From: Desulfovibrio sp. DV
GTDB taxonomy: Bacteria > Desulfobacterota > Desulfovibrionia > Desulfovibrionales > Desulfovibrionaceae
Direction of reading: 5' to 3'
Assembly: GCF_001936595.1 (NCBI RefSeq)
Contig: NZ_MLBG01000001.1
Coordinates: forward strand, 62,001 to 126,000
DNA length: 64,000 bases
A program made the position numbers and the translations under genes. How positions within the stretch are numbered: position 1 is the stretch's first letter; each line of letters begins with the position of its first letter. Positions 33,981 to 60,784 of this stretch are shown in pieces. The notes below the pieces were generated by a model. It had not been told where the DNA came from, made no database searches, and saw nothing but the letters and a program-made list of their open reading frames with translations.

Positions 33981-34286
33981 TTACGTAAACAAATAGTCTT
34001 CGCAGGCTTCGCCCTTTTCCAGGGCGTCGAGCAACTCATCCACTTTATCTTCGCTGTCGATCTCTTTGTACCACCAGTTATTGGGCATAACGACCACAAC
34101 CGGTCCGTCTTCGCACTGCTTCAGGCATCCGGTGCTGACCACGCGGGCGTCAATGTCCCGGTCGAGAATGCCTTCTTCCATGTAGCCAAGCAGGTTGTGC
34201 GATCCCTTTTTGTGGCAGATGCCCTTGGCCTCGCCCTTGACGCGAAAGCTCGCGCAGACGTTGATCAGGTATTGCGGCTTTTCCAT
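33981..34286 (-). CDS. Thioredoxin-fold 2Fe-2S ferredoxin
   Basis: A 101-residue 2Fe-2S protein of the thioredoxin-like ferredoxin family. The cluster ligands are C11, C24, C54 and C58 (INVCASF, KGICHKK, STGCLKQC), the spacing of this family. Such ferredoxins are found downstream of nitrogenase genes in anaerobes, where they may donate electrons or protect the enzyme. Here it is the last gene of nifHI1I2DK, separated from nifK by 136 bp containing a very strong hairpin (34356-34411), which probably lowers its expression relative to nifDK. Followed by the terminator. Confidence 0.88.
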   Translation of the reverse strand: MEKPQYLINVCASFRVKGEAKGICHKKGSHNLLGYMEEGILDRDIDARVVSTGCLKQCEDGPVVVVMPNNWWYKEIDSEDKVDELLDALEKGEACEDYLFT

Positions 34287-34355
34287 GTTCCGTGCGTCTC
34301 CCTCGTGTTGCGTCCAATAAAAATCCGACAGAATTTCAACTGGTGGAAACTTTGT

Positions 34356-34411
34356 CCCGGTGTGATGTCCTCGAAAGAGCGGTTAGGGCGCTTCGAGGAC
34401 ATCACACCGGG
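34356..34411 (-). promoter_or_regulatory. Perfect 20-bp hairpin between nifK and ferredoxin
   Basis: The left arm 34356-34375 (CCCGGTGTGATGTCCTCGAA) and right arm 34392-34411 are exact complements with a 16-base loop. It starts 11 bp after the nifK stop. No T-run follows on the - strand, so it is more likely an mRNA-protecting or processing structure, or an inefficient terminator, than a simple terminator. Confidence 0.8.
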
Positions 34412-34422
34412 CGTACTCACTG

Positions 34423-35808
34423 TTACAGCTGGAGCTCGAACCGGGTCTCGGGGGCGTCGCGGTCCAGACGATCGAGGAGGGCTTCCAGGAACTTCTCCAT
34501 CAGTCGCATGGCTCCGGAGTAGCCGACCGTGGGGAAGTACTGGTGGCCGACGCGGTCAAGGATCGGGAAGCCGTGGCGAATGAGCGGGATGTCCTCATCG
34601 CGGGCGATGTACTTGAGGTACGTGTTGCCAATGAGCAGGTCGACCGGGTCGTTTTTCACCCACTGGTGCAGCAGGAACATGTCGGCTTCGCCGCCGCACT
34701 TGAACTTGCAGTCATACGGCACGTCTTTGAGCAGTTCCGTCATGCGTTCGTCAAAGTACTTTCCGGCCGTGCCCGTGACCGTGTAGGCCGGGATCATGCC
34801 CAGGGTGACGCAGAACTCAACCAGGGCCAGGATCTGGTCGGGGTCGCCGGCCATGGCCACTTTCTTGCCGTAGAAGTACTGGCTGTAGTCGGAGAGGATG
34901 TCCACGACCTGGCCGCGCTCGAAGTTGATGGAGTCCGGCACGTCCTTGCCGGTCAGACGGCGCATCATGTCCACGAAGGCGTCGGTGGCCTTGAGGCCGA
35001 TCGGCAGCGGCAGCACCTTGCCCGGAACCTTGAACTCGGAGTCGAGGTAGTTGACCGCCTCGGTGGTGGCCCAGCGGCCAAGGCCGATGGTGGCGATGGA
35101 GTCGCCCATGGTGGCGATCTCAGCCGGGGTGGCTCCGGCGTTGGGGTACATCTCATAGTGACCGGTCAGCGGGCCGTTTAAGACGCCGTTGGTGTCGGGC
35201 ACCATGGTGATGTCGATGCCCATCATGCCGGCTAAGCGGCGCATTTCGGCCATGTCGGACGGTTCGCAAAAGCCCGGGATGATGTTGAGCTTGCCGTTTG
35301 GCGTGCCGGTCTTTTTGACGAAGCCCTTGAGGATGCCCTTGACCATGTTGGCGTAGCCGGTGACATGGGTGCCGACGTAGCTCGGCGTGCTGGCGTAGAT
35401 GATGTGCTTGCCGTCGGGCACCTTGCCGTCGTCGATGGCCTTCTGGGAGATCTGGCGCAGATCGTCGCCGATGGTCTCGGAGAGGCAGGTGGTGTGGATG
35501 GCGATGACCTCGGGGTCATAGAGGGTGAAGATGTTGTCGATGGCCGTGATCAGGTTGGACTGGCCGCCGAACACCGAGGAACCTTCGGTGAAGGAGGAGG
35601 TTCCGGCCACGACCGGCTCCTTGTAGTGCCGGGTCAGGGCGGAGCGATGGTAGGCGCAGCAGCCCTGGGAACCGTGGCTGTGGGGGAAACATCCCTTGAC
35701 GCCAAGGGCCGCGTACATGGCGCCGACGGGCTGGCAGGTCTTGGCCGGGTTGACGGTGAGCGCGGAGCGTTCCTTGATCTCGCCGGTGGTATGTCTTAAG
35801 AGAGCCAT
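34423..35808 (-). CDS. nifK: Nitrogenase molybdenum-iron protein beta chain
   Basis: Beta subunit of MoFe nitrogenase, 461 residues, shorter at the N-terminus than the proteobacterial 520-residue form and like the clostridial/anaerobe type. P-cluster cysteines are visible in NPAKTCQPVGAMYAALGVKGCFPHSHGSQGCCAYHR and HTTCLSETIGDDL. It pairs with NifD, whose start is 1.6 kb upstream on the same strand with 33 bp between genes. The anaerobe form has its extra length in NifD instead. Its 3' end is followed by the long hairpin and the ferredoxin gene. Confidence 0.97.
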   Translation of the reverse strand: MALLRHTTGEIKERSALTVNPAKTCQPVGAMYAALGVKGCFPHSHGSQGCCAYHRSALTRHYKEPVVAGTSSFTEGSSVFGGQSNLITAIDNIFTLYDPEVIAIHTTCLSETIGDDLRQISQKAIDDGKVPDGKHIIYASTPSYVGTHVTGYANMVKGILKGFVKKTGTPNGKLNIIPGFCEPSDMAEMRRLAGMMGIDITMVPDTNGVLNGPLTGHYEMYPNAGATPAEIATMGDSIATIGLGRWATTEAVNYLDSEFKVPGKVLPLPIGLKATDAFVDMMRRLTGKDVPDSINFERGQVVDILSDYSQYFYGKKVAMAGDPDQILALVEFCVTLGMIPAYTVTGTAGKYFDERMTELLKDVPYDCKFKCGGEADMFLLHQWVKNDPVDLLIGNTYLKYIARDEDIPLIRHGFPILDRVGHQYFPTVGYSGAMRLMEKFLEALLDRLDRDAPETRFELQL

Positions 35809-35841
35809 AATGCTTTCCTTTCTCGCAGATCGCGTTCGTTG

Positions 35842-37464
35842 CTAGGCCACGTAGGTGGCTTCGAGCTCAGGGCCGGTGGACTGCCAGGGGGCCTTGATGA
35901 GATTCCAGACCTTGGTGTTCACCATGCGGTCGATGTCGCGGTACCAGTTGATGGCTCCGTTGAACCCGGCGTAGGGACCGCCCATGTCGTAGTTGTGCAA
36001 CTGCTTCAGCGGAATGCCCATTTTCTGGACGATGTACTTTTCCTTGATGCCGGCGCAGAAGATGTCGGGCCTGTAGATCTCAAGGAGCTTTTCGGTCTCG
36101 TAGTGGTTGATGTCGTCGATGACCATGGCGTTCTTGCCCATGCCCTCGATCATGCCCTCGTAGCCCTTGAAGTCGACGCCCTTCTCGTTGAGTCTGGCCA
36201 TCTCCTCTTCGGTCTTGCGGGGCTTGAAGCGCTCGGGATCGGGGAGGATCTCCAGCTCTTCGATGTTGCGCGAGTCGGCGTCGACCTTGATGTTGGGCAG
36301 CACGTGCCGGCCTTCATAGTCGTCGCGGTGGGCGAACTCGTAGCCCGCGCCCAGGATCTTCATGCCCAATTCCTTGAACAGTTCCTGGTAGTGGTGGGCC
36401 CGGGAGCCGCCGACGAAGAGCATAGCGGTCTTGCCTTCGGTGCGCGGCTTGATTTCTTCCACGACCTTGTTGACGGCAATCAGTTCCTCGGCAATGACAG
36501 CCTCGACCCGGTCGATCAGTTCCTGATCCTCGAAGTAGGCGGCCATGCGGCGCAGCGACTTGGCAGAAGCTTCGGCCCCGATGAAGTTCACCTTGATCCA
36601 GGGAATGCCGAACTTGGTTTCCATCATCTCGGCCACGTAGTTGAGCGAGCGGTGGCACATGACGGTATTGAGGTCGGCGTTGTGGGCCACCCGGAAGTCC
36701 TGCACCGTGGAGTTGCCGGAGAAGGTGGCAACCAGGGTGAAGCCGCACTTTTCCAAAATACGCTCGATCTCGAAGGCATCGCCGCCGATGTTGTACTCGC
36801 CAAGCATGTTGACCTTGAATTTGCCTTCGATCGGGGTGGTGTCGTCCGTACCGATGACGTGCTTCATGATCTGGTTGTTGGCGATGTGGTGGCCGGCGGA
36901 CTGGGACACGCCCTTATAACCTTCGCAGGAGTTGGCGAAGATGGTGATGCCAAGCTCTTCCTGCATGGTGCGGGCAACGGCGTGGATGTCATCGCCGATG
37001 AGGCCGACCGGACAGGTGGAGAAGATGGAGATGGCCTTGGGATGGAAGGTGTCGAAAGCTTCCTGGATGGCCGCGCGCAGCTTCTTTTCACCGCCGAACA
37101 CGATGTCGTGCTCGGTCATGTCCGTAGAGAAGGAGTAGGGGATGAAGTTTTCGCCGTCCGGGCCGGCCTCGGTCTGGTTGCGGCGGGTCAGCCAGGAGTA
37201 GAAGCCGCAGCCGATGGGACCGTGGGTCAGGTTGATGATGTCCCGGGAGGGGCCGAGAACGACGCCCTTGCAGCCGGCGTAGGTGCAGCCGCGCTGGGTG
37301 ATGATGCCGGGGATGGTGCGGACGTTGGACTGTATTTCAGGAATCGGTTCGCCCATTTCGGTGCCCGGGAGGATGGACTTGGCCCGCTTGCGCGCGACCT
37401 TGGTGGGCATCTTGGCGATCAATTCCTTCTTGATCTCTTCGACATTGGTGGGCTTGGTGCTCAT
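35842..37464 (-). CDS. nifD: Nitrogenase molybdenum-iron protein alpha chain
   Basis: Alpha subunit of MoFe nitrogenase, 540 residues, longer than the Azotobacter form and consistent with the insertion seen in clostridial-type NifD. P-cluster cysteines: C60 (RGCTYAGCKG), C86 (GPIGCGFYSW) and C151 (FSTCPVGLIGDD). The FeMo-cofactor cysteine lies in TVMCHRSLNYV and the cofactor histidine in QLHNYDMGGPYAGFNGA. Molybdenum rather than vanadium or iron-only type is indicated by adjacency to nifK without a delta-subunit gene (vnfG/anfG). The long + strand frame over it is a shadow. Confidence 0.97.
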   Translation of the reverse strand: MSTKPTNVEEIKKELIAKMPTKVARKRAKSILPGTEMGEPIPEIQSNVRTIPGIITQRGCTYAGCKGVVLGPSRDIINLTHGPIGCGFYSWLTRRNQTEAGPDGENFIPYSFSTDMTEHDIVFGGEKKLRAAIQEAFDTFHPKAISIFSTCPVGLIGDDIHAVARTMQEELGITIFANSCEGYKGVSQSAGHHIANNQIMKHVIGTDDTTPIEGKFKVNMLGEYNIGGDAFEIERILEKCGFTLVATFSGNSTVQDFRVAHNADLNTVMCHRSLNYVAEMMETKFGIPWIKVNFIGAEASAKSLRRMAAYFEDQELIDRVEAVIAEELIAVNKVVEEIKPRTEGKTAMLFVGGSRAHHYQELFKELGMKILGAGYEFAHRDDYEGRHVLPNIKVDADSRNIEELEILPDPERFKPRKTEEEMARLNEKGVDFKGYEGMIEGMGKNAMVIDDINHYETEKLLEIYRPDIFCAGIKEKYIVQKMGIPLKQLHNYDMGGPYAGFNGAINWYRDIDRMVNTKVWNLIKAPWQSTGPELEATYVA

Positions 37465-37516
37465 CTCGGTGCTACCTCATTAGGTCTAAGGGGTCCGGGG
37501 ACGTCCGCCGTGCCGG

Positions 37517-37891
37517 CTAGACAATAGCCGCTTCGCCGGCTTCGCCGGTCCTGACCCGGATGGAGTCGGAGACGGGCATCACAAAGATCTTGCCGTCGCC
37601 GGCCTGGCCGGTCTTGTTGACGCTTATCAGGGCGTCCACAGCTTCTTTGACCTGATTGTCCGGGACCACGATTGAAATGATGCGCTTGGGATAGAGGCGG
37701 CCCTTGGTGCCGAGGAGTGCAATGGCTTCCTCGTTTCCGGCCGCCGCGCCGTCAAGCACGGCCTGATTGACCAGACCCTTGCCGCGTCCGTAGCCTTCGC
37801 GGGCCACAAAGGCCGGGATGCCAGCATCGGCCAGGGCCTTCTTGGTCTGATTCATCTTGTTCATGCGGATAACCGCCATTATCTCCATCAT
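37517..37891 (-). CDS. nifI2: Nitrogen regulatory PII-like protein NifI2
   Basis: PII-family protein of 124 residues with the NifI2 type T-loop region (REGYGRGKGLVNQAVLDGAAAGNEEA) and the C-terminal PII core (AGDGKIFVMPVSDSIRVRTGEAG). In methanogens NifI1-NifI2 bind nitrogenase and switch it off when ammonium is added, with 2-oxoglutarate relieving inhibition. The position between nifH and nifD, after nifI1, is the classical order. The start is either of two adjacent ATGs (37891 or 37888). Gap to nifD is 52 bp. Confidence 0.93.
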   Translation of the reverse strand: MMEIMAVIRMNKMNQTKKALADAGIPAFVAREGYGRGKGLVNQAVLDGAAAGNEEAIALLGTKGRLYPKRIISIVVPDNQVKEAVDALISVNKTGQAGDGKIFVMPVSDSIRVRTGEAGEAAIV

Positions 37892-44075: not shown

Positions 44076-44479
44076 TTAAATGCATAAGTGAGGGTTTTTA
44101 TATACTTGTCTAATTTGAAAATATTATGTTGCCCCTATAGTTGTCCCTAAAAGTATTGTCGCTGAATCGGTGAGTCTGTGGACTTGAGTTAATACCACCA
44201 CTTGGCTAGCCCAGGGCGATGAGTTCAAGGTCTCCTGCCTGGAAGAGGAGAGGATTGTGTTGGAGAAGAAATAGCATATCTAGCTGAGATTCAGGACAGT
44301 TATGCAGACAAGCCCACGTCGTCCAGGAAAATAGGAAGGGCGTGGGTCTGTATTTGTGATTTGGAGAGGTAGTATAGAAATTTATAACGATATAGACGAA
44401 AATAATTGATGTGTACTTTTGAGAAATTTCCATGGAAAGTAAACGATGAATTTTAAGTTCAGTATATCTGATAAAATTG
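44076..44479. other. AT-rich gene-free stretch inside the att-flanked element
   Basis: About 400 AT-rich bases downstream of the zinc-ribbon gene at 44480. Several short frames exist (one of 75 codons on the - strand, 44206-44433) but none has a ribosome site or recognisable protein character. Confidence 0.5.
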
Positions 44480-45487
44480 TCAGATTGATTTTGATGAAGG
44501 GAAAAGATTTAGTGATCGCCTCAGTGTTGCAACTAATTCAGCAGAACTCAATTCATGATCACCCTCTGACCATAATACTGTTGTGCAATGATTCGTATCG
44601 AAATGAGTTTTTGCGTTGTCAAATTTTGTTTTTTCACATAAATATATAACGGGTTTCCCAAGGCCTTCAGCGTATCCTGCTTCCCAATAGGCACCATAGT
44701 TGTCGTGCGTAAGGTCGGCAATTACAAAGGCAGAATCTCTGATTTTTTCACGCATTATATTGTCAATTATTCCGGCGCGGGCTACATCTCTTAAATCGAT
44801 GAGGTCATAATTTATTGACTCTTTAACGACAGGCTTGATGATATCTGAAATAAATTTATCTAAAGTTGCATCACCAAATTTCATGGCAATAAAACCATAC
44901 TTTCCAGCAACTAATCCTTGTCTTTCTGCTTCATAGCGTTCCCATCCTTTGAGGGTAAGACCATATCGATCTCCTTTGATAAACCCTGGGGATCGAGGAT
45001 TAGGAATGGTATCACACTCTAAAGGTTGGATTAACCCGTACTTTTCAAGTTCTAATCGAAGATTATTGAACATTGGAACGTTGAATGCTCCGATTCGCAC
45101 CGAATCGATGACATCGTCTATAAAGTGGCCGACACCTGTTTCACGGACTTTATCTCCTAGCAATCGTATAAGGTTAGATGCCTGGATAGACGCGGTCGGG
45201 AGATAGCAATTGATAAGAAATTTTTCAATCCAGCTAGTCGTAATGATAATAGCTTCGTAGGTGTCGCGATAGGTGCATAACGAATGTGATAAGCATCTTC
45301 GTTGAACTGGCGTTAGTTTGGATGTTCCATTTTCAAAAAAACTAACATAAGCAGATTCAGTAATCTCAAATGAACCACATGCTTGACAATAAAACCCATA
45401 ACTATCTCGCTGGGTTCGAAAATTCTTACATGTGACGTTGTTGGCACAAAGACAAATCGGACAGAAATTTGGTTGTGGTGAGCTCAT
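44480..45487 (-). CDS. Zinc-ribbon plus nucleoside deoxyribosyltransferase/TIR-like protein (candidate defence gene)
   Basis: A 335-residue protein of AT-rich DNA. Residues 1-40 carry a zinc ribbon, C9-C12 and C34-C37 (FCPIC, YCQAC). The middle, 60-190, is helical and unassigned. From about residue 195 a Rossmann-like domain runs: GFIAMKFG, then DSAFVIADLTHDNYGAYWEAGYAEGLGKPVIYLC. The pattern ADLT-x(n)-WExGYAxxxGKPV is that of nucleoside 2-deoxyribosyltransferases and related TIR-like folds, with E269 at the catalytic glutamate position. Proteins of this shape occur in bacterial defence as NAD- or nucleotide-cleaving effectors; that role is inferred here. It lies between two att repeats, alone. 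I cannot name the family. Confidence 0.7.
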   Translation of the reverse strand: MSSPQPNFCPICLCANNVTCKNFRTQRDSYGFYCQACGSFEITESAYVSFFENGTSKLTPVQRRCLSHSLCTYRDTYEAIIITTSWIEKFLINCYLPTASIQASNLIRLLGDKVRETGVGHFIDDVIDSVRIGAFNVPMFNNLRLELEKYGLIQPLECDTIPNPRSPGFIKGDRYGLTLKGWERYEAERQGLVAGKYGFIAMKFGDATLDKFISDIIKPVVKESINYDLIDLRDVARAGIIDNIMREKIRDSAFVIADLTHDNYGAYWEAGYAEGLGKPVIYLCEKTKFDNAKTHFDTNHCTTVLWSEGDHELSSAELVATLRRSLNLFPSSKSI

Positions 45488-45571
45488 TTCAGTGATCCTT
45501 CAAGTTCTGTTTGGATTTAAGCCTACATTTTATTGCATCAACTGTTATTTTTAATTCGATACAGGGTCAAG

Positions 45572-58389: not shown

Positions 58390-58623
58390 ATGCGCCAGAC
58401 AAATCTGCCCCACGATCGCACCGCCCACGGCCCGCTGCTCAACGTCAAGCAGGTGATGGAGCGGCTCGACTGCTCAAAAACATTTGTCTATGACTTGATT
58501 AAGTCGCAGCAACTGGCCCACGTCAGGCTGGGCACGGTTAAGGGGCTGCGCGTCCCGGAAAAAAGCCTGAAGCTTTACATCCGCAAAAAAGAGGCGGCGG
58601 CCAAGAGCGGGGTGGAATCATGA
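58390..58623 (+). CDS. Excisionase/MerR-type helix-turn-helix protein
   Basis: A 77-residue DNA-binding protein of the excisionase family: LLNVKQVMERLDCSKTFVYDLIKSQQLAHVRLGTVKGLRVPEKSLKLYIRKKE. This is the winged-helix of Xis/AlpA-type or MerR-like regulators. It lies 11 bp after the large terminase, an unusual place for an excisionase, so a role in DNA binding during packaging or in regulation is as likely. Its stop overlaps the next start by four bases. Confidence 0.8.
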   Translation: MRQTNLPHDRTAHGPLLNVKQVMERLDCSKTFVYDLIKSQQLAHVRLGTVKGLRVPEKSLKLYIRKKEAAAKSGVES

Positions 58624-58739
58624 GGCGTTGGGTCCTTTGCCTGTTGGTATTGTTTGCGGCCGCGCTCTCCGGGTCGCCTGCCCTGGCCGGAGACGAGGCG
58701 CGGATCTACGACGCCAAGGGGCGTTACCAGGCCGGGTGA
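58620..58739 (+). CDS. Tiny exported protein, probably truncated
   Basis: A 39-residue frame starting RRWVLCLLVLFAAALSGSPALAG, a signal peptide, then DEARIYDAKGRYQAG and stop. Beyond, in another frame, MMDGNGNAQVYD and a stop look like its natural continuation (repeat-like IYDAKGRYQ / VYD). It appears shortened by a one-base frameshift and a stop. The ATG overlaps the preceding gene. Confidence 0.4.
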   Translation: MRRWVLCLLVLFAAALSGSPALAGDEARIYDAKGRYQAG

Positions 58740-59011
58740 TGATGGACGGCAACGGCAACGCCCAGGTTTACGATTAGCATGGCAAAAATTAGAGAGCGTG
58801 TTGAAAAATGTGGATACGTTATGTGAGATGTGCCTTGTGTGAATTAGTTCTTCTGACTAGGTGCAGGATAATAGTGGGGTAATGGTGAATGATATGTTTA
58901 TGATTGACATGTGAGTGCTGTTAAGTAATATTTATGTCAATTTATTATACGTGCTTGGAATGTATTGGTTTTTTGGAATTAAATACAAAGATGGGCCAAA
59001 GGAGGGTGTCT

Positions 59012-59266
59012 ATGTTTTCTTGGATGTCCTTGCCGCTTGTTATTCTGATCTTTTTTCTAAGTTTTGCTTCAGCTTTCAGTCAAGATGGTCCTGGGATTCA
59101 TCGTCTGCCTCCTCCTCCTCCTCCTCCTCCGTTAGCGCAGCAATCTGGTAGTAATGCAAATATTGTTGATGCGTTAAAGAAAGAAAATTCCTTGCTAAAG
59201 AAAAAAATTAGACTACTTGAAGACTATGTGCGTCAACTTGAGGCGAGGATTAAGGAAAATAAATAG
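59012..59266 (+). CDS. AT-rich cassette protein 1: anchored proline-rich coiled coil
   Basis: An 84-residue protein. Residues 1-22 (MFSWMSLPLVILIFFLSFAS) form a signal or anchor. HRLPPPPPPPPLAQ is a proline stretch. The C-terminal half is a coiled coil (IVDALKKENSLLKKKIRLLEDYVRQLEARIKENK). GGAGG stands before the ATG. GC is far below the surrounding phage. It shares the C-terminal coiled-coil pattern with the third gene of the cassette (59662). No family recognised. Confidence 0.55.
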   Translation: MFSWMSLPLVILIFFLSFASAFSQDGPGIHRLPPPPPPPPLAQQSGSNANIVDALKKENSLLKKKIRLLEDYVRQLEARIKENK

Positions 59267-59280
59267 GAGGTTTTTCAAAG

Positions 59281-59637
59281 ATGGAGATGTCTTTGGATGA
59301 AATCAAGAATGCAATTGATGCTGTTAATCATGAATTAGCTGGTTCTCAAAGTGTTAATAATGAGCAAGTCGTGTGGTGGACTACTCAAAGTGCGATGACA
59401 ATGTGTGCGTCAATATTGATTTTTTGTATTGTTGTATTGGGATTTGTAACATATTTGCTGAAGTCCGGTGCTGAACAACCTGAGGCGATTCTTAGAATGT
59501 TTGGAACGATAATAATAATTATAGTTACAGTATTTCTTGTTGTTGCTGGGTATAATGACCAGCAAATTGCTCCTGCAATTGGGTTGCTTGGAACAATAGC
59601 TGGTTACTTGCTTGGAAAAGATGTGAAAAAGGTATAG
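59281..59637 (+). CDS. AT-rich cassette protein 2: two-helix membrane protein
   Basis: A 118-residue integral membrane protein. An N-terminal amphipathic region (SLDEIKNAIDAVNHELAGSQSVNNEQVVWW) is followed by two transmembrane helices (about residues 38-61, MTMCASILIFCIVVLGFVTYLL, and about 73-92, MFGTIIIIIVTVFLVVAGY) and a glycine-rich end (GLLGTIAGYLLGKDVKKV). AGGAGG precedes the ATG at 59281. It is 14 bp after the first cassette gene and 24 bp before the third. Phage holin-like by size but unlike a classical holin. No family recognised. Confidence 0.55.
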   Translation: MEMSLDEIKNAIDAVNHELAGSQSVNNEQVVWWTTQSAMTMCASILIFCIVVLGFVTYLLKSGAEQPEAILRMFGTIIIIIVTVFLVVAGYNDQQIAPAIGLLGTIAGYLLGKDVKKV

Positions 59638-59661
59638 TGTGTGAGTTGAAGGATTTTCAAT

Positions 59662-59901
59662 ATGCGCAGGAAGTTGTGTTTATTAATAAGTATCTCCATC
59701 TTGTTGATCGGCCTAGTTGTTGCATTTGGATATTTTTCGCGTTTACAATTTGTTCCGCTTGCTGGCTCAAGCCCTAAATTGGGTAAAGAAAACGATGAAA
59801 TTGTCACTTTGTTGAATGAAAATGCATTGCTAAGGGAAAAGATAAGATTAATTGAGCAATATATAAAAGAACTTGAAAAAAACTTGGCAAGTGGAAACTA
59901 A
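59662..59901 (+). CDS. AT-rich cassette protein 3: signal-anchored coiled coil
   Basis: A 79-residue protein. Residues 1-24 (MRRKLCLLISISILLIGLVVAF) are a basic-hydrophobic anchor. A short linker follows, then the coiled coil EIVTLLNENALLREKIRLIEQYIKELEKNLASGN. This parallels the end of cassette protein 1 (VDALKKENSLLKKKIRLLEDYVRQLEARIKE), so the two may be paralogues or form a heteromer. No family recognised. Confidence 0.55.
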   Translation: MRRKLCLLISISILLIGLVVAFGYFSRLQFVPLAGSSPKLGKENDEIVTLLNENALLREKIRLIEQYIKELEKNLASGN

Positions 59902-59932
59902 TGGCGTTGTTTAGATAACTTCCGTTGGCTAA

Positions 59933-60277
59933 GCCGGTCTTTCTGACTCTATCCCGGGCTGTTTGACCCAGGGCGACACCGAGGCCCGGGCCATGGAAAT
60001 GGCCGTGGATGCTCTCAGCGGGCACATACACACCCTGCGCGACCTGGACAGGGAGGTGCCGCCGCCGTCGCCGTTGGCAGCGTTGGCGATCCCGTCCGGC
60101 GCGCGGGTGGCGTTGGTCCCCGGGCCTGCCAGCGAAACCCCACCGGTACGCATCAGTGTCTCCATCAACCAGGGCTTGTTGCGCGATGTCGACGCGGCGG
60201 CCAAACGCGAGGGCATGACCCGCTCCGGGTTCCTGGCGGCGGCGGCCCGCACGATGCTGTCCCAGATCCAAGCGTAA
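59933..60277 (+). pseudogene. 5'-truncated HicB-type antitoxin
   Basis: Open from a stop at 59930, the frame reads AGLSDSIPGCLTQGDTEARAMEMAVDALSGH, the HicB signature IPGC-x-TQGDT, then a linker and a C-terminal ribbon-helix-helix (VRISVSINQGLLRDVDAAAKREGMTRSGFLAAAARTML). The first 15-25 residues of HicB are missing and no start codon stands in their place, so it is probably inactive. No hicA toxin is adjacent. The break falls exactly at the end of the AT-rich cassette. Confidence 0.75.
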
Positions 60278-60547
60278 CAGCCCGATCCTGCTGCTTAAAC
60301 CGCCCCCGCGCCGTCCGGCCCGGGGCGTTGTCTTTCCTGGTTCCAGGTCGCCGGACAAACTATTTTTCGACGATGCAAATTTGACCCCCGATTTAGCATC
60401 CCTCCCTCCCCGCCTAAAACCCGCGCCACGCCTGTCCTCCCGGGCGGCCCGCCCGCACTGAAAACCCCCTGAAAAAACCGTCCGTATCGTCCTTATTGTC
60501 CTTATCGTCCACCAGTCGGCCCAGGCGAGTGTGCTAGCCCCTCGCCC

Positions 60548-60784
60548 ATGGCCATATTCACCCGAGCGGAAAAGCAGACCCACATCGACACCTGGAAGGC
60601 GGCGCTTCTCGCAGTCGCGTCGGGCGCTGAGTTCACCATCGGCACCCGCCGGTTGCGCCGGGCCGATCTGCCGGACATCCAGAACCATCTCGATTGGCTG
60701 GATGCGTTGCCGACCAAAGAGGATGAGGCCGCCGGCCGAGGCTCCCCCCAATTCCACGAACTGATCCCCAGGCGGTCATCGTAA
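60548..60784 (+). CDS. gpW-like phage head-tail joining protein
   Basis: A 78-residue protein MAIFTRAEKQTHIDTWKAALLAVASGAEFTIGTRRLRRADLPDIQNHLDWLDAL, the gpW/DUF6148 pattern, followed by a charged tail. In lambda-type phages it completes the head for tail joining. Its position just before the portal gene fits; its stop overlaps the portal ATG (TAATGG). The gap 60278-60547 before it shows nothing coding; CGTCCACCAGTCGGCCCAGG within it also occurs in the remnant at 46032. Confidence 0.8.
   Translation: MAIFTRAEKQTHIDTWKAALLAVASGAEFTIGTRRLRRADLPDIQNHLDWLDALPTKEDEAAGRGSPQFHELIPRRSS

Follow-up and report, generated by a model that had tools for sequence, protein, structure and literature searches.

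The window analyzed here, a stretch of 64,000 nucleotides from Desulfovibrio sp. DV, carries within a prophage an AT-rich cassette of three short genes (58780-59930; all coordinates given without a locus label are positions within the window). Two of these genes, coding for an exported coiled-coil protein (gene 1) and for a small membrane protein (gene 2), constitute a pair that recurs in other prophages and in bacterial chromosomes, and it is this pair, not the trio, that forms the conserved unit. The third (gene 3) is paralogous to gene 1. The cassette occupies an accessory-gene hotspot of the prophage and is very probably a moron, that is, lysogenic-conversion cargo (PMC2920897). We favor, with a probability of roughly 0.4, the reading that it encodes a gated inner-membrane complex which would be expressed in the lysogen and would serve for exclusion or abortive infection; this figure, as well as the degrees of likelihood worded below, is a matter of judgement.

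Recurrence of the gene 1-gene 2 pair

The cassette and its genes are as follows.

58780-59930, plus strand: AT-rich cassette, guanine-plus-cytosine (GC) content 0.370, in the prophage accessory site
59012-59266, plus strand: gene 1, exported protein with signal peptide, Pro-rich linker and C-terminal coiled coil
59281-59637, plus strand: gene 2, membrane protein with 3 predicted membrane helices, the third Gly-rich (PAIGLLGTIAGYLLGKD)
59662-59901, plus strand: gene 3, paralogue of gene 1 by coil similarity, with an N-terminal anchor by eye

The pairing, like the gene anatomy, the variation of the site and the lysis genes of the prophage, is a direct result of the analysis. It was examined in 35 loci, leaving out duplicate places (L017-L019, L027, L033, L036, L041-L044, and L046) and one weak match (L032, E 9e-4) whose open reading frame (ORF) looks by eye like another protein; near-duplicates exist among the loci (L024/L025/L026 and L029/L030). 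Gene 2 was present in 35/35, and at 29 of them an exported protein with a coiled-coil or helical end was located directly upstream (25 by script and four by eye, L001, L021, L039, and L040). These upstream proteins are short; their middle part is Pro-rich or variable, and their C-terminus forms a coil or is otherwise helical. Gene 1 was not seen upstream of gene 2 at L008, L009, L010, L012, L028, and L037, the last of which lies near a contig end. Among the loci collected later, the pair was found in L076, and was not found in L085 and L128; L129 is doubtful. The two genes overlap in 22 of the 25 pairs measured, a count based on hand-entered coordinates with starts from a custom ORF caller, L001, L020, L022, L026, and L038 not being entered. 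The pair is also kept in distant relatives (E about 1e-10 to 1e-14; L029, L030, L031, L034, L035, L038, L039, and L040). Adjacency and overlap lend indirect support to the heteromeric membrane assembly proposed in the initial annotation, and it is likely that the gene products form a physical complex. That annotation named as a refutation that the three genes never co-occur; outside this prophage they were not found together as far as searched, so that only the two-gene core, which does recur, withstands this condition.

The scan of genome contigs for gene 2 gave 16 loci, one match per genome, with 11 metagenome-assembled genomes among them by title. By record title they belong to Pseudomonadota, Thermodesulfobacteriota, Verrucomicrobiota, Bacteroidota, and Planctomycetota, a list to be read with the caution that the title of L004, Verrucomicrobiaceae, may be wrong, since its genome group shares G658 with the groups around the Pseudomonadota genomes G347 and G355. 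The scans of viral contigs gave 7 loci by profile (L020-L026) and L045 by single sequence. The distribution is patchy: the gene-2 profile was matched in 2/99 relatives, in 5/247 genomes of the phylum and, in other groups, in 3/370, 6/200, 5/349, and 3/198 genomes, counts that include the centre of each group, share some genomes between groups and contain some weak matches. A gene-2 tree of 26 rows, with long branches and weak support in 12 of 23 inner branches, separated a phage-rich type (mostly GLLGTIAGYLLGK; 9/15 rows from phage loci) from another, mostly chromosomal (GLFGAIAGYLLGKD; 1/11 rows from phage loci). Of the six IMG/VR loci measured, five (L020-L023 and L025) had a pair with a GC content below that of either flank, and in L024 the pair equalled the right flank.

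Predicted anatomy of the three proteins

Three membrane helices were predicted for gene 2, instead of the two initially annotated. The AlphaFold2 (AF2) model, built with 25 rows, placed helices at 5-22, 35-61, 67-89, and 93-112 (pLDDT 81.6, pTM 0.55). In the alignment, the first loop contains K/R in 25/25 rows and the third helix is uncharged in all 25, while the N-tail (24 rows) has on average 4.0 acidic vs 1.7 basic residues; several distant relatives, as well as L012, L028, and L128, show by eye a signal-peptide-like start before the N-tail. Taking these features into account together with the AF2 model, we infer that gene 2 crosses the membrane three times, with its N-terminus outside and its C-terminus inside. 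The residues invariant over the 25 rows, which include G90, Q95, G101, L102, G104, G108, Y109, L110, L111, and G112, form a glycine-zipper-like pattern, and the conserved motif of the third helix is kept by gene 2 and its relatives at 30-50% identity.

The signal peptide of gene 1, previously taken for an anchor, is probably cleavable, and the N-terminal anchor of gene 3 is probably uncleaved, both calls having been made by eye. The AF2 model of gene 1 consists of helices 4-21 and 48-83, joined by a Pro-rich segment that is unstructured (pLDDT 81.2, pTM 0.38). Cys is absent from gene 1 and a lipobox from gene 3, and the hydrophobic segments of both are without Asp. It had been annotated that genes 1 and 3 end alike, and the comparison of their C-terminal coils bore this out: the local score was 75, a value reached by 0/5000 heptad-preserving shuffles (mean 36). 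Nine other gene-1 coils scored 30-54 against gene 1 of the window, and the coils of genes 1 and 3 scored only 20 against the Rz-like coil of the prophage. A gene-1 profile of 18 rows, window gene 3 included, was run on 34 loci; at E 0.01 it gave 2 matches in the window, 1 in each of 20 other loci and none in 13, and it matched L020, L022, L045, and L076 even though these are outside it. Among those 34 loci, a second gene-1-type match, namely gene 3, was seen only in the window; beyond them gene 3 was sought only in viral contigs, where the scan returned only the same prophage. This prophage is also present in IMG/VR, 100% identical over the 12,720 bases compared; apart from this second record of one sequence, no further copy of the trio was found.

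The statement of the initial annotation that no known family is recognizable holds as far as Pfam, NCBIfam, PHROGs, and PADLOC were searched. For genes 1-3 there was nothing above the curated cut-off in Pfam or NCBIfam and nothing below E 0.01 in PHROGs. The alignment contains 24 further gene-2 rows; of the 20 run singly in Pfam, none was above the cut-off among the families listed, and no holin profile exceeded its cut-off for window gene 2 or for these rows. The sequence search in the PDB gave nothing below E 1 for gene 2 and mostly coiled-coil chains for gene 1 (best E 0.0017). In the literature nothing on the pair appeared among the matches listed, which does not establish its absence from print; the matches listed for the motif strings were all cell-penetrating, antimicrobial, or carrier peptides.

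The prophage site and the neighborhoods of the pair

The cassette is the lowest-GC stretch of 1150 nt in the window, scanned in 50-base steps, and its GC of 0.370 compares with 0.644 in the left flank and 0.666 in the right flank, in agreement with the AT-rich three-gene stretch described initially. Good ribosome sites had been claimed for the three genes on the same strand; AGGAGG precedes genes 1 and 2, and gene 3 has a weaker AGGA. No terminator was found within the cassette. The other features of the site are listed below.

58390-58623, plus strand: HTH_17 gene (PF12728), left conserved border of the site, with a similar gene in 3 sister prophages
58904-58932, plus strand: candidate sigma-70-like promoter, TTGACA, 16-17 nt, TAATAT/AATATT
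59933-60277, plus strand: hicB-like remnant without N-terminus (PF15919 E 1.8e-11, phrog_497 E 5.7e-15)
60548-60784, plus strand: head-tail adaptor-like gene (DUF6148/phrog_118), right conserved border

On the left of the cassette the large subunit of the terminase is encoded (phrog_15, E 5e-112), followed by the HTH_17 gene, and on the right are the HicB-like remnant, the adaptor gene, and a portal gene (phrog_21, E 1e-89). Relatives of the terminase protein, 82%, 75%, and 74% identical, were found in three genomes of the same genus, and these were used as sister prophages. Between the helix-turn-helix (HTH) gene and the adaptor gene, L066 has a 152-aa ORF (GC 0.46) and an oppositely oriented hicAB-like pair (phrog_353 toxin, phrog_497 HicB-like), L067 has one 63-aa ORF (GC 0.35), and L068 has no evident gene; over the whole stretch the GC is 0.64-0.66 in the three of them. 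Neither the 152-aa nor the 63-aa ORF had a PHROG match at E 0.001. The contents of the site differ among the three sister prophages, which makes it an accessory-gene (moron) hotspot. Around the cassette, only short, chance-like repeats were detected, and no transposase gene was seen near it in the ORF list by eye; a transposon-like insertion was rejected on these grounds, and it is from the sister prophages that the cassette can be called inserted. What persists of the mobile envelope module initially proposed is thus a pair recurring in prophages and chromosomes, an accessory hotspot, and a low GC; the three-gene set does not recur.

The right edge of the cassette was set near 59930. There the frame of the hicB-like remnant opens just past the stop at 59930-59932, its listed ORF begins at 59963, and its alignment to PF15919, a profile of 123 positions, starts only at position 25, consistent with the hicB lacking its N-terminus that had been reported. 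No hicA was seen ahead of it in the ORF list by eye, and the neighbor of the cassette thus lacks the arrangement of a HicAB system, in which a complete hicB is preceded by hicA. Directly before the cassette, at 58621-58777, there is a short signal-peptide ORF with a broken frame, and no counterpart of it was seen in the corresponding stretch of the three sister prophages. Just before the adaptor gene an imperfect inverted repeat (TTTTTCGANGATGCAAA...) was observed at about 60363-60402, and 9-base-phased repeats (GTCCGTATC GTCCTTATT GTCCTTATC) at about 60478-60513; by eye, L066, L067, and L068 have versions of both in the corresponding position, and they are possibly a packaging or regulatory site. 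Elsewhere in the window, a second AT-rich stretch at ~44250-45550, nearly as low in GC as the cassette (about 0.38), contains a 335-aa ORF on the minus strand (44480-45487), and nitrogenase-like genes lie by eye on the minus strand at 33981-37891, upstream of the prophage in window coordinates.

Beyond the window, the same prophage contains a Holin_2-3 gene (E 2.2e-37), an endolysin of the SLT transglycosylase type (E 1.3e-14), and an overlapping gene pair with the anatomy of Rz/Rz1 spanins, named by anatomy alone as Pfam gave nothing for it and PHROGs only families of unknown function. Considering that its holin, endolysin, and spanin-like genes are elsewhere, the cassette is not the lysis cassette of this phage, and a spanin or lysis role of that kind was rejected; the lysis-type system of the initial annotation is consequently unlikely here; the superinfection exclusion that it also named is possible. 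A similar separation was seen in L045, whose endolysin (phrog_181) and Rz-like spanin (phrog_2466) lie away from the gene 1-gene 2 pair.

The pair was found in diverse surroundings. In L020 it adjoins a minor tail protein and a terminase small subunit on the opposite strand; in L023 it is ahead of a terminase (phrog_9) and a portal (phrog_12); in L025, and in the near-identical L026, it has on one side HNH/terminase genes (terminase phrog_9 in L025) together with a RelE-like toxin and a regulator, the opposite side being taken by an OLD/GajA-like ATPase. In L011 a nearby gene has a match to a phage DNA ejection protein, and in L006 a TIR_2 protein is downstream. Hydrolases were also seen: in L003 (7277-8945), two separate genes, one with a CHAP match that is weak and below cut-off, downstream of the pair, and one for a DUF900 alpha/beta hydrolase; upstream of the L005 pair, a weak GDSL match, also below cut-off; beside the pair in L076 and L080, papain-family enzymes; and in L088 a trypsin-like gene. 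The hydrolases near the L003, L004, L005, L076, and L080 pairs have no signal peptide by eye. In L080 (5493-7454), a single protein next to the distant pair combines a papain-family domain with what is by eye an alpha/beta hydrolase-like part. Two distant genomes, L015 (6406-6858) and L086 (7218-7649), have homologous lipoproteins immediately after the pair (24% over 127 aa, pairwise E 1e-6); a small helical protein comes next in each, and these two small proteins are mutually dissimilar; in L007 a lipoprotein and a small helical protein precede the pair by eye. The membrane protein downstream in L003 (6445-6915) had no Pfam match and is SLATT-like by eye, and that of L021 (8565-9539) had no NCBIfam or PADLOC match.

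Proposed function and comparison with known systems

According to the favored reading, a moron-encoded gated complex, the cassette would be cargo held at the accessory hotspot between the terminase and connector genes. Gene 2 would be a small three-helix inner-membrane protein with its acidic N-tail in the periplasm and, since its uncharged, glycine-rich third helix suits close packing, it is probably an oligomer and perhaps a pore. Gene 1, an exported coiled coil on a Pro-rich linker, would probably be the partner of gene 2, and gene 3, as a membrane-anchored duplicate of gene 1, would supply this partner in a second form. The complex would be present in the lysogen and act on incoming phages, with the periplasmic coils detecting or occluding the injection and gating or reshaping the membrane complex, so that the entry of DNA would be blocked or the cell depolarized. 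Topology, complex, pore, and expression are what we infer in this account. The function itself, exclusion or abortive infection, is a tentative guess by analogy, put ahead of envelope homeostasis, lysis or release, and a toxin with its neutralizers. A broader proposal is more doubtful: that this is a two-component envelope machine, uncatalogued in the libraries searched, in which an N-out glycine-zipper protein would be gated by an exported Pro-rich coil, common to prophages and chromosomes of several phyla; in prophages it would sense phage injection and close or open an inner-membrane pore, and the tethered duplicate coil would make a three-part version here.

The favored reading draws on the variable site in the three sister prophages, the foreign composition of the cassette, the lysis genes that the prophage has beyond the window, the recurrence of the pair in phage loci with other packaging genes, the OLD/GajA-like, RelE-like, and TIR neighbors, the adjacency and overlap of genes 1 and 2, and the topology features of gene 2. 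Several results weigh against it. No acceptable match was obtained by tblastn either in INPHARED (50,697 phage records, four gene-2 queries) or in PLSDB (72,556 plasmid records, three gene-2 queries), one chance-level match of E 6 being all that these searches gave. PADLOC 2.0.0 returned 0 families at E<=0.1 for the six proteins scanned (genes 1-3, one further gene-1 protein and two further gene-2 proteins), and the fold searches of gene 2 in PDB and BFVD gave no match at E<=0.001 among those listed, with middling Z values as are common for helical bundles. Many relatives are located among ordinary chromosomal genes where no phage or defence gene was noticed by eye, and the neighbors that are defence genes are few. 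A pair GC below both flanks was found in 5 of 12 genome-contig loci too (L003, L005, L007, L011, and L013). The C-tail of gene 2 is mixed (3.2 basic and 3.4 acidic residues) and K/R are present also in 22/24 N-tails, so that the charge argument rests on loop 1. The promoter-like matches in the cassette, 2 overlapping ones, one of which reads TTGACA-N16-TAATAT, are not above chance (1.8 expected, sd 1.3). Finally, in L004 the pair follows a GTA_holin_3TM gene (E 1.3e-20) and an Amidase_2/SH3 gene.

That last arrangement would suit an accessory of lysis or release, with gene 2 as a pore of the holin type and gene 1 regulating it from the periplasm, comparable to the holin T and the antiholin RI of phage T4; the pair would aid the exit of leaderless hydrolases or the timing of lysis. 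The CHAP, GDSL, and papain-family neighbors described above point in the same direction; however, they occur at a minority of loci, no holin family was above cut-off for gene 2, and both the prophage of the window and L045 have lysis genes apart from the pair. We consider this explanation improbable, and somewhat less so a bacterial membrane-periplasm pair for envelope maintenance or stress that some prophages have acquired. The latter is favored by the distant pairs that lie by eye among ordinary chromosomal genes (L078, L083, and L084) and by the homologous lipoprotein beside the pair in L015 and L086, but its presence is very patchy, as the 2/99 relatives and 5/247 genomes of the phylum illustrate.

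It could also be thought that gene 2 is a toxic membrane protein restrained by the coils of genes 1 and 3, in an addiction module like hicAB. A hicAB-like pair does occupy the same site in L066, a RelE-like toxin with its regulator is near the pair in L025, and the window has two paralogous partners. The products of usual type II toxin-antitoxin systems are unlike membrane or periplasmic pairs, and here both products are predicted in the membrane or periplasm; in addition, no separate gene 1 was seen for the gene-2 relatives L010, L012, and L128. This explanation is considered quite improbable. Least probable of all would be degenerate or hitch-hiking DNA without function: the neighboring hicB is truncated and the frame at 58621-58777 is broken, but the cassette has three intact ORFs with ribosome sites, and gene 2 retains the third-helix motif at the identities given above.

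With this analysis, what appeared as an isolated AT-rich oddity becomes a defined pair that recurs in a number of prophages and also in bacteria from several phyla. Should the pair exclude phages or depolarize infected cells, its two very small core parts would amount to a compact exclusion system; should it prove to be a lysis or envelope factor, proteins without a role would gain one.

Regarding known membrane systems, gene 2 shares with ExbB/TolQ/MotA a 16-column motif, APxxGLxGTxxG (hhalign 35.7 vs 20.2 for the best of 40 shuffles, with the family picked after a whole-Pfam scan and the ExbB stretches cut around the motif regular expression, 16/20 loci). The rest, however, is unalignable, there is no room for a cytoplasmic domain, and the partner in these systems requires an Asp in its transmembrane segment, whereas the hydrophobic segment of the partner here has none. 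In Pfam the E value against the ExbB family was about 0.09 at best, in 4/25 members, and instead of a full PF01618 domain only a stretch of 14-16 residues was found in gene 2. Membership was rejected, the likeness being confined to 16 columns despite beating the shuffles. The transmembrane domain of MscS has a three-helix, N-out plan with a Gly-rich third helix, and MscS was among the weak Foldseek matches of the gene 2 AF2 model (VIA Z 5.5, root mean square deviation 4.3, 85 residues), but unrelated helical proteins reach Z 7-8. The profile score of 17.7 (12 MscS-family sequences) was reached by 6/40 block shuffles; homology was not accepted, and MscS was kept as an analogy. DUF998 (PF06197) was the commonest weak Pfam match, with 11/25 gene-2 rows at E<=1 and a best value of 1.1e-4 in a row belonging to the four outside the single scans (L010, L022, L024, and L026); in the five rows for which it appeared in the single scans (L005, L006, L013, L021, and L023), it reached 16-19 bits vs a cut-off of 30, in two different regions of the profile.

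Inner-membrane spanins have an N-terminal anchor plus a periplasmic coil. Gene 3 has by eye an anchor and a coil, which would be periplasmic, but the lipoprotein partner of the Rz/Rz1 type is missing, no lipobox cysteine of an outer-membrane spanin being found. The likeness to phage T4 concerns only the way of working. Its Imm is a small membrane protein. According to PMC7677548, Spackle, a small protein exported to the periplasm, works together with Imm to counter superinfection, and its mature form is a compact helical bundle, whereas gene 1 is a Pro-rich linker and one coil. For T4 RI, PMC8385771 describes a periplasmic protein with a cleavable signal that binds the holin T and is believed to sense the DNA of superinfecting phages; the cassette would likewise combine an inner-membrane protein with an exported periplasmic partner, but gene 2 has no holin profile match, lies outside the lysis cassette, and has three predicted helices.

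The cassette can also be compared with morons. It differs from them in an effector pair that matched no catalogued family in the searches made; its candidate promoter is at chance level. It has in common with them a location between conserved phage genes, a GC unlike that of the phage, and a hotspot with other cargo in sister phages. Moreover, the gene 1-gene 2 core is present in phages with different packaging genes (phrog_15/phrog_21 in the window, phrog_9/phrog_12 in L023, and phrog_9 in L025), a sharing that covers this core and not gene 3. Although as a gene family it has no catalogued match in the searches made, as cargo the cassette is of a known kind.

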